A DNA stretch of 64,000 nt. Source: an uncultured Commensalibacter sp. (GTDB taxonomy: Bacteria > Pseudomonadota > Alphaproteobacteria > Acetobacterales > Acetobacteraceae). Shown here piece after piece: positions 48,470-52,155 of this stretch. Made by a program: the position numbers and the translations under genes. The notes beneath the pieces were generated by a model, which was given only the letters and a program-made list of their open reading frames with translations, did not search any database and was not told the origin of the DNA. Location of the stretch: assembly GCA_945266285.1 (NCBI GenBank), contig CALYOP010000002.1, positions 248,001-312,000 of the forward strand, written 5' to 3'. Position 1 is the first letter of the stretch. Each line of letters opens with the position of its first letter.

Positions 48470-48558
48470 CATAATTTAGATTTGACGCTAAAATGAACAT
48501 AAACCTAATATGACCGTGCTAAATATTGGCTTTAATCATCTAGGAGACTAGGGAAAAC

Positions 48559-49512
48559 ATGAAAAATAAGATTGCTTTGATTGGTGCTGGGAACATTGGT
48601 GGTACCATGGCACATCTAATCGCTTTAAAAAAAATGGGCGATGTTGTTATTTTTGACGTTAATGAAGGGGTTGCCAAAGGGAAAGCTTTGGATATTGCAC
48701 AATCTTCAGCGATTGAGCACTTTGACCTTAGCATAAAAGGTACTTCTAATTATGCAGATATCAAAGATGCGGATGTTGTAATTGTCAGTGCTGGTTTTGC
48801 ACGTAAACCTGGTATGTCTCGAGATGATCTTCTGGTAAAGAATGCCGGTGTGATGAAAGAGGTTGCAGAAGGTATCCGTCAATACGCACCGAATGCTTTT
48901 GTAATTGTCATTACAAACCCACTTGATTTAATGGTTGCTGAAGTTCAGGAAAAATCTGGGTTGCCAGCAAATAAAGTGGTTGGTATGGCGGGTGTACTGG
49001 ATAGTTCACGTTTACGTCTTTTCTTAGCAGAAGCATTAAATGTTGTGCCTGATGAAGTAAATGCTTTTGTATTGGGTGGTCATGGGGATACCATGGTTTC
49101 GATGATCCGTTATGCATCTGTTGGTGGTGTTTCAATCCAAGAATTGATTGATATGGGACGGATCACGAAGGAACAAGTTGATCAAATTATTGCTCGTACT
49201 GCTGATGGTGGTGCAGAGGTTGTTAAATTACTGCAAACGGGATCTGCATTCTTTACGCCAGCTTCTTCGGCTTTGTTAATGGCGGAAGCTTACTTAAGAG
49301 ACAGTAAAAGAGTTCTGCCTTGCTCTGTTAAGTTAAATGGGGAATACGGATATAAAGATATTTATGTTGGTGTGCCTGTGGTAATTGGCAAAAACGGTGT
49401 TGAACAGATTATTGAAGTTCACATGAATAATGAAGAGAAAGAGAAGTTCCAAATTTCTTGCGGCAAGATTTTAGAAATGAAGAAACAAGCTGCTCAGATA
49501 CTTGGTAAATAA
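48559..49512 (+). CDS. mdh: malate dehydrogenase, copy 1
   Basis: 317 aa; [51 protein letters not shown]. Confidence 0.97.
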
Positions 49513-49513
49513 A

Positions 49514-49553
49514 AATAAAACCGTAGCTTTATTTCTAAGGCTACGGTTTTATT
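49514..49553. terminator. bidirectional terminator between mdh copy 1 and convergent peptide gene
   Basis: aataaaaccgtagc ... gctacggttttatt 14-bp perfect stem. Confidence 0.9.
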
Positions 49554-49580
49554 GAATTAACAGTTTATATTAAACTATTA

Positions 49581-49889
49581 TTAGGACATAAGGCCTTTGA
49601 TATTTGTGTATGCTGCACTTAAAGAATCACCGACACCTTTGAAAAGATTTGTAAGACCATTGCTTCTATCGGTAGCTTCACCATGGATTCTTGAATCAAC
49701 TAAATAGCCGATTCCAGTTCCGATTTCAGTTAATGGATTTACTTGTGAAGCAGATGCTTCTTTACCGGTGATAAGGTGGAAGCCTTTATCAATAGCCTTA
49801 CCAAAAAAGCCACCAAGTTTAGAACCGATATCAGCACCTATACCAGCACCAGATACGGATTCGATTTCTACGAGTGAAAGTTCACGCAT
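49581..49889 (-). CDS. bacteriocin-like peptide with double-glycine-type (SGA/G) leader, copy 1
   Basis: 102 aa; MRELSLVEIESVSGAG leader then Gly-rich GIGADIGSKLGGFFGKAIDKG; AGGAG 8 nt upstream of ATG. Confidence 0.75.
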   Translation of the reverse strand: MRELSLVEIESVSGAGIGADIGSKLGGFFGKAIDKGFHLITGKEASASQVNPLTEIGTGIGYLVDSRIHGEATDRSNGLTNLFKGVGDSLSAAYTNIKGLMS

Positions 49890-50162
49890 TTACGTTCTCC
49901 TAAAAATTAAAAAGTTAAAGATAAATTAAAGTATATTTTTAGTGTCATTTCTTATCAATAAATAACAATGTGTAAACGTGGTTTATTAAGTAATATTTTT
50001 GTGAATTATATTGATAATATACTAATTTTTTAATGCTTCGGTTAAAGGATATGTTTTTCATAAAATAGTTTTTGCATAGGAATTCCGAATGCTAAAATGA
50101 ACATAAACCTAATATGATCGTGCTAAATATTGGCTTTAATCATCTAGGAGACTAGGGAAAAC

Positions 50163-51116
50163 ATGAAAAATAAGATTGCTTTGATTGGTGCTGGGAACAT
50201 TGGTGGTACCATGGCACATCTAATCGCTTTAAAAAAAATGGGCGATGTTGTTATTTTTGACGTTAATGAAGGGGTTGCCAAAGGGAAAGCTTTGGATATT
50301 GCACAATCTTCAGCGATTGAGCACTTTGACCTTAGCATAAAAGGTACTTCTAATTATGCAGATATCAAAGATGCGGATGTTGTAATTGTCAGTGCTGGTT
50401 TTGCACGTAAACCTGGTATGTCTCGAGATGATCTTCTGGTAAAGAATGCCGGTGTGATGAAAGAGGTTGCAGAAGGTATCCGTCAATACGCACCGAATGC
50501 TTTTGTAATTGTCATTACAAACCCACTTGATTTAATGGTTGCTGAAGTTCAGGAAAAATCTGGGTTGCCAGCAAATAAAGTGGTTGGTATGGCGGGTGTA
50601 CTGGATAGTTCACGTTTACGTCTTTTCTTAGCAGAAGCATTAAATGTTGTGCCTGATGAAGTAAATGCTTTTGTATTGGGTGGTCATGGGGATACCATGG
50701 TTTCGATGATCCGTTATGCATCTGTTGGTGGTGTTTCAATCCAAGAATTGATTGATATGGGACGGATCACGAAGGAACAAGTTGATCAAATTATTGCTCG
50801 TACTGCTGATGGTGGTGCAGAGGTTGTTAAATTACTGCAAACGGGATCTGCATTCTTTACGCCAGCTTCTTCGGCTTTGTTAATGGCGGAAGCTTACTTA
50901 AGAGACAGTAAAAGAGTTCTGCCTTGCTCTGTTAAGTTAAATGGGGAATACGGATATAAAGATATTTATGTTGGTGTGCCTGTGGTAATTGGCAAAAACG
51001 GTGTTGAACAGATTATTGAAGTTCACATGAATAATGAAGAGAAAGAGAAGTTCCAAATTTCTTGCGGCAAGATTTTAGAAATGAAGAAACAAGCTGCTCA
51101 GATACTTGGTAAATAA
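50163..51116 (+). CDS. mdh: malate dehydrogenase, copy 2 (identical protein)
   Basis: Amino-acid identical to 48559..49512. Confidence 0.97.
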
Positions 51117-51117
51117 A

Positions 51118-51157
51118 AATAAAACCGTAGCTTTATTTCTAAGGCTACGGTTTTATT
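51118..51157. terminator. bidirectional terminator, copy 2
   Basis: Same 14-bp stem as 49514..49553. Confidence 0.9.
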
Positions 51158-51184
51158 GAATTAACAGTTTATATTAAACTATTA

Positions 51185-51493
51185 TTAGGACATAAGGCCT
51201 TTGATATTTGTGTATGCTGCACTTAAAGAATCACCGACACCTTTGAAAAGATTTGTAAGACCATTGCTTCTATCGGTAGCTTCACCATGGATTCTTGAAT
51301 CAACTAAATAGCCGATTCCAGTTCCGATTTCAGTTAATGGATTTACTTGTGAAGCAGATGCTTCTTTACCGGTGATAAGGTGGAAGCCTTTATCAATAGC
51401 CTTACCAAAAAAGCCACCAAGTTTAGAACCGATATCAGCACCTATACCAGCACCAGATACGGATTCGATTTCTACGAGTGAAAGTTCACGCAT
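51185..51493 (-). CDS. bacteriocin-like peptide with double-glycine-type leader, copy 2
   Basis: Identical 102 aa to copy 1. Confidence 0.75.
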   Translation of the reverse strand: MRELSLVEIESVSGAGIGADIGSKLGGFFGKAIDKGFHLITGKEASASQVNPLTEIGTGIGYLVDSRIHGEATDRSNGLTNLFKGVGDSLSAAYTNIKGLMS

Positions 51494-52109
51494 TTACGTT
51501 CTCCTAAAAATTAAAAAGTTAAAGATAAATTAAAGTATATTTTTAGTGTCATTTCTTATCAATAAATAACAATGTGTAAACGTGGTTTATTAAGCAATAT
51601 TTTTGTGAATTATATTGATAATATACTAATTTTTTAGTAAATCAGTTAAATTTTTTCATTTTAATAAATAATTCTTATATAGAATTTTTGAAGGATGATT
51701 TTTAATCAATCATATCAAAATTTTATTAATTTTCTATTTTTTCCAATAACTTATAAGAAACCATATTGATTTTTTAAAGCATATATTTTTGAAGAAAATA
51801 CTTAATTTTTATCAGGTGATAGATGAATAAGAAATATCATTCATCAACTTTGAGTTGATATTTAGTTGTAATTTACATAACAAAATAAATGTGTATTATA
51901 TCAATACATTTAAATAATGTATTTAATATATAGGTATTTTTTGAAGGAAAATAACCGAATTTTTGTTGTATATTCCGAATTGCTAATATGCTTTCTATAA
52001 ATTATTGAGGAAATTTAGCGGTTATATAAATCACGAATGATATGAATATTAGGAATTTAACCCTATTTGGAAATTGGTTTGATGAATAAGACTGTAAAAT
52101 AGAGGCGAT

Positions 52110-52155
52110 ATTTTTATATTGACCATCACTTTATTTTTATATTGACCATCACTTT
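52110..52155. repeat. perfect 2 x 23-bp tandem repeat upstream of sucA
   Basis: atttttatattgaccatcacttt x2 (52110-52132, 52133-52155). Confidence 0.95.

Follow-up and report, generated by a model that had tools for sequence, protein, structure and literature searches.

The window analysed here, a 64,000-nt stretch of an uncultured Commensalibacter genome (2.16 Mb, 12 contigs), carries two copies of a gene for a member of a multi-copy peptide family not described before. The product is very probably a C39-exported peptide, whose leader would be recognised and cleaved after Gly-Ala during one-step export through a C39 ABC exporter, an adaptor and a TolC channel. Peptides of this kind most often act against bacteria, and for this reason we lean, with more reserve, towards a class II microcin-like bacteriocin of which the gene would encode the precursor. 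In its leader and predicted export it resembles class II microcin precursors; this does not establish membership of the class. The family is new and its arrangement unusual, with multiple dispersed cargo genes and no immunity genes linked to them; the kind of system is already known.

The peptide gene was found on the minus strand at 49581..49889 (copy 1) and at 51185..51493 (copy 2). ORF translation gave two identical 102-aa products, which begin with MRELSLVEIESVSGA and continue beyond the predicted cleavage site as GIGADIG, and which matched other family members. An AGGAG Shine-Dalgarno sequence preceded the ATG of each copy and both genes were convergent to mdh, so that the reading frames, ribosome binding sites and orientation given in the original prediction all stood. 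It had also described a duplicated peptide gene. Two copies are indeed present, but the duplicated unit is larger, about 1546 bp (1.55 kb), and includes a complete mdh that had been missed. Repeat comparison placed the two blocks at 48487..50032 and 50091..51636, a direct, near-tandem duplication with an offset of 1604 and a 58-bp spacer. The blocks differ by two mismatches, both non-coding, and the duplication is spanned by a 372-kb contig as assembled. The mdh copies (48559..49512 and 50163..51116, both on the plus strand) encode the same protein, with Pfam Ldh_1_N and Ldh_1_C domains in copy 2, the one scanned. We regard mdh as a neighbour that was copied together with the peptide gene, and do not think that it takes part in peptide function.

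Between the convergent ends of mdh and the peptide gene, direct reading of the sequence revealed an inverted repeat at approximately 49517..49550 (copy 2: 51121-51154), composed of an A-tract, a stem and a T-tract (AAAACCGTAGC...GCTACGGTTTT). It was absent from the list of a consensus terminator scan, which was limited to loops of 8. The repeat looks like a shared bidirectional terminator, in which case mdh and the peptide gene would be separate transcription units. A promoter scan placed a weak sigma-70-like site, TTGATA-17-TATACT, 5′ of the peptide ATG on the minus strand (49930..49958; copy 2: 51534-51562). The site is suggestive only, because promoter-like sites are just as numerous in the region as expected by chance. 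A perfect 23-bp tandem repeat (TATTTTTATATTGACCATCACTT x2) was seen 5′ of sucA, at 52109-52154 of the window.

The source genome was the only one of nine Commensalibacter genomes with mdh and the peptide gene between zapE and sucA. In the seven relatives read, zapE was followed directly by sucA, and G008 had the same sucA match as G005. A search at E<=1e-50 detected no mdh in any of the eight relatives, and none of them had a peptide orthologue at the zapE/sucA site. In the outgroup Acetobacteraceae, zapE lay upstream of mdh at 10 of the 13 loci read. We therefore rejected the import of mdh and the peptide gene as one cassette. It is more likely that mdh at the zapE site was ancestral, that the other eight genomes of the genus lost it, and that the peptide gene was a newcomer inserted beside it.

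The double-glycine-type leader comprises residues 1-15 (49845..49889, minus strand; copy 2: 51449-51493), as delimited by conservation and by a genus-wide pattern, with cleavage predicted after Gly14-Ala15. It was conserved as MREISxxEIxxVSGG in a 24-row family alignment and, across 28 family members, better conserved than the core (mean majority fraction 0.65 versus 0.40). Its end is of the GG/GA/GS type and its hydrophobic positions are conserved, as expected of a C39-exported peptide. A degenerate MREL..EI..VSGA pattern, allowing up to two mismatches, gave 39 matches in nine Commensalibacter genomes versus one for the reversed pattern used as control, an enrichment that supports the double-glycine leader proposed earlier. 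Four of the 39 were discarded, three because they belong to copies of a helicase-like protein and the fourth as a match by chance.

The suggestion that further MREL leaders might exist elsewhere in the genome was likewise confirmed. Several carriers had unrelated cores behind the same leader, and two such peptides were found in the source genome, which was searched with the family profile and the leader pattern (such a search may overlook peptides whose leaders diverge). One, on contig 3 (C3:173649; L125:5580-5771), has a leader ending in MRELTTTEVKDIAGG followed by FGVQWGHTHNSFWIKPFLGRRPGRG, and the other, on contig 4 (C4:169108; L126:6090-6272), has a leader ending in MRLLTEVEIKDVSGG followed by HHHNSKP. 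The contig 3 peptide shared the C-terminus FLG[RK][RK]PG[RK]G with a C. communis peptide (L135:3988-4161), in which VAGG is followed by FGAYISWNNKDGFHAGAFLGKKPGKG.

The original prediction had supposed a transporter elsewhere in the genome and had named the lack of a C39 exporter beforehand among the refuting observations. The source genome contained exactly one C39 domain (E=1.5e-38), in a 733-aa peptidase ABC exporter (C2:135469-137670) with the catalytic Cys/His/Asp motifs ECGLACL, NHFVVL and NDPAHG and the ABC motifs. A gene for a 459-aa HlyD/CvaA-type adaptor overlaps the start of the exporter gene, the pair lying about 160 kb from the peptide genes. Six TolC-type outer-membrane factors accounted for 12 OEP domain matches. 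The exporter, the membrane fusion protein and the channel are thus all encoded in the genome, none of them adjacent to the peptide.

No leader peptide was found beside the exporter in the source genome or in C. communis G003. In seven of the nine Commensalibacter genomes, leader peptides lay directly upstream of the HlyD-C39 ABC pair (G001, G002 at two loci, G004, G005, G006 and G007, with G008 assigned by position). In G006, five paralogous leader peptides follow one another 5′ of the pair (L132:7719-9962), with no convincing gene between them. The same order was observed in a second acetic-acid genus (G312, G179, G221), whose exporter-linked peptides matched the window peptide best over the full length (37% identity, E=5e-19), its own copies set aside, and fell in its clade with moderate support (92/75) and weak resolution. 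Family members thus adjoin CvaAB-type genes in relatives, and together with the leader and the exporter genes this makes CvaAB-type export and cleavage well supported. A related 72-aa peptide (E=4e-9 against the G312 peptide) was found on Klebsiella michiganensis plasmid NZ_CP048111.1 (L197:8001-13989), from the fruit fly Bactrocera dorsalis. It lies 2.4 kb 5′ of HlyD and C39 ABC genes, among transposases and insertion sequences. Transfer of the peptide system between insect-gut bacteria is possible.

The earlier description of a host-associated acetic acid bacterium agrees with the assignment to Commensalibacter. A comparative study of the genus reports a COG2274 “bacteriocin exporter gene” in all of its genomes, in a passage that names no cargo (PMC10149009). 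The peptide family provides candidate cargo for this exporter, and the bacterium that carries it is a tractable symbiont of bee and fly guts.

The gene had been described as sitting alone between housekeeping genes; what had been missed is that it belongs to a large dispersed family. Using the window peptide alone as query, we found homologues in seven of the eight relatives, with best E values from 4e-10 to 3e-3, and the peptide matched the family profile at E=1.5e-27. Profile searches recovered ten full-length members in G006 (E<1e-20) and one to three in most other Commensalibacter genomes. Orthologues adjoined mnmE in G002, G004, G005 and G006; the G008 peptide was nearly the same as that of G005, and the source genome had no peptide at the mnmE locus. 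The family genes are under purifying selection (dN/dS 0.09-0.33 among closer pairs and 0.34-0.61 among distant, near-saturated pairs). As a single query, the window peptide had no match in the public genome collection or among viral contigs; the family alignment contained no segment of sufficient conservation for such a scan. No description of these peptides was found in open-licence papers.

The predicted mature peptide (49584..49844, minus strand; copy 2: 51188-51448) was judged from alignment and composition. It has 87 residues, rather than the approximately 86 predicted earlier, a mass of 8.9 kDa, a pI of 6.9, 18% Gly and no Cys. The predicted Gly-rich character held, and GxxxG motifs exceeded what composition explains, being about twice as frequent in the family cores (141) as in shuffles (69 +/- 6.8). 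Two glycine-zipper segments, GSKLGGFFGKAID and EIGTGIGYLVD, correspond to the conserved patterns GxxxGxxxGxxxD and G-x-G-[IL]-G-xxx-D. An AlphaFold model was all-helical with low confidence (pLDDT 62), and a search for relatives of solved structure returned none (best E 0.8, unrelated). With its GG/GA signal the peptide falls within the 5-10 kDa of class II microcins as defined in PMC10233263. The C-terminus (...AAYTNIKGLMS) is not the Ser/Gly-rich one to which class IIb siderophores are attached.

Pfam and NCBIfam searches yielded no core similarity to known bacteriocin families above accepted thresholds, the NCBIfam matches of the family being below the cut-offs. Pfam MccV matched 12 of 24 family members (best 1.4e-4) with the leader included, and the match disappeared once the leader was removed. 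Membership of MccV by core sequence was therefore rejected, the match coming from the leader, and core homology to any microcin is not established.

An adjacent immunity gene is normal for class II microcins, though such genes are difficult to detect and perhaps not present in every system (PMC9746304). A hydropathy-based, Shine-Dalgarno-filtered search within 700 bp of 27 family genes gave no recurring candidate; beside 24 of the 27 there was no small ORF with a Shine-Dalgarno sequence and a transmembrane segment, and none was found at the window loci, a point on which the peptide departs from class II microcins. The pore-forming bacteriocin of the original prediction is thus not established, given a core without bacteriocin similarity and the lack of a linked or recurring immunity gene.

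The closest known systems are class II and especially class IIa microcins, with microcin V (colicin V) and its exporter CvaA-CvaB-TolC. The window peptide shares with them a 15-residue GG/GA leader of the MRxLxxxExxxVSGG type, an 8-9 kDa, unmodified-looking, Gly-rich mature peptide with GxxxG, and a CvaA-like HlyD protein with a C39 ABC exporter. Unlike microcin V, the window peptide has no MccV core homology, no Cys and no linked immunity gene, is unlinked to its exporter in the source genome and belongs to a large paralogous family. The MccV-like peptides of Xylella fastidiosa (review PMC10233263), compared by description and not by sequence, also comprise several GG-leader genes with export machinery, but these are three adjacent genes and are iron-regulated. 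Most of the roughly ten verified class II microcins come from E. coli or Klebsiella (PMC9746304, PMC10233263).

On the microcin-like reading, the 15-residue MREL(S)xxEIxxVSG(A/G) leader would be recognised by the single CvaB-like C39-peptidase ABC exporter and cut by it after Gly-Ala. The exporter, the HlyD/CvaA-type adaptor and a TolC-family channel would then release an 87-residue, Cys-free, presumably helical peptide, whose two glycine-zipper segments would suit membrane insertion and tight helix packing. The likeliest effect of such a peptide would be to depolarise the inner membrane of related bacteria that compete with the producer in the insect gut. The cargo family would multiply and scatter away from the exporter, leaving one exporter with many alternative cargo genes. 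Membrane insertion, the antibacterial target and the producer's avoidance of self-killing are inferences, as are cleavage and secretion. Several observations stand against this reading: core homology to a microcin is not shown, the MccV match being lost without the leader; no candidate recurs and 24 of 27 family genes lack one, while the ten members in one genome would each need immunity; the peptide is neutral and not cationic; the AlphaFold confidence is low; and some peptides with GG leaders serve purposes other than acting on competitors (PMC4997328, PMC11798529).

We put forward more tentatively the idea of an expandable arsenal without immunity genes. In acetic acid bacteria of the insect gut, one C39 exporter would be kept, while glycine-zipper cargo and unrelated cores behind the same leader are repeatedly duplicated and scattered about the genome; self-protection would not depend on cognate immunity proteins, and the family would reach insect-gut enterobacteria on plasmids. 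How ten peptides without linked immunity genes spare their producer, or whether they are non-toxins, is testable.

Among the alternatives, the one that survives best, though we judge it rather unlikely, is a C39-exported matrix or surface peptide serving aggregation or biofilm formation on the insect gut wall, with glycine zippers mediating self-assembly instead of killing. The precedent is EbfG1-4 of Synechococcus elongatus (PMC4997328), a set of small proteins that have GG leaders of the microcin type, need the single C39 peptidase PteB and enable biofilm formation. Compared by description and not by sequence, they differ from the window family in this biofilm function and in being clustered together. 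The lack of a recurring immunity gene fits a matrix role, as do the conserved mnmE-locus orthologues, which suggest a stable function more than a fast-turnover weapon, and the several leader peptides that adjoin Hint_2 proteins (G001, G006, other genera) or, once, an autotransporter. However, the window locus has no Hint_2 neighbour, nor do most exporter loci in Commensalibacter, and the family varies in copy number, in sequence (30-40% identity) and in whether a member is present at all, more in the manner of arms-race cargo.

We consider it improbable that the peptide acts on the producer's own population, in self-directed lysis or kin discrimination, although the absence of a linked immunity gene would follow from such action. 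The Neisseria Nap peptides (PMC11798529), likewise several bacteriocin-like GG peptides, have no antimicrobial activity and promote autolysis, but the gonococcal Naps are short (16-36 aa) and cationic, whereas the window peptide has 87 residues and is near-neutral. Their C39 peptidase works with a FapF-like outer-membrane protein and a LagC-like immunity homologue lies nearby. Bacteroidetocins, which are antibacterial (PMC6671954), inhibit their own producers and, like the window peptide, have a GG leader, a peptidase-ABC exporter, a Gram-negative gut host bacterium and no immunity protein. They differ in length (35-50 aa), in conserved Cys with a thiol oxidoreductase, in phylum and in being exporter-linked.

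Peptide pheromones are also carried by C39 exporters, and the lifestyle is host-associated; a signal or a host-directed peptide is nevertheless as improbable as lysis, since pheromones are seldom as long as the mature peptide (about 87 aa), and the loci read had no linked receptor kinase or regulator, save an S24/Cro-type repressor at some exporter loci. A spurious or decaying ORF next to mdh, as might be suspected of a short orphan with no same-site orthologue in any relative, is refuted by the full-length homologues in seven of eight relatives (E to 4e-10; profile E=1.5e-27), the Shine-Dalgarno sequence, the intact state of both copies and dN/dS <1.

Some neighbours of the wider set of leader peptides were recorded. 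Leader peptides adjoined Hint_2 (hedgehog/intein-type) domain proteins in G001, G006 and other Acetobacteraceae genera (L123, L121, L149, L151, L155, L159), one leader peptide adjoined an autotransporter, and an S24/Cro-type repressor was present beside some exporter loci.
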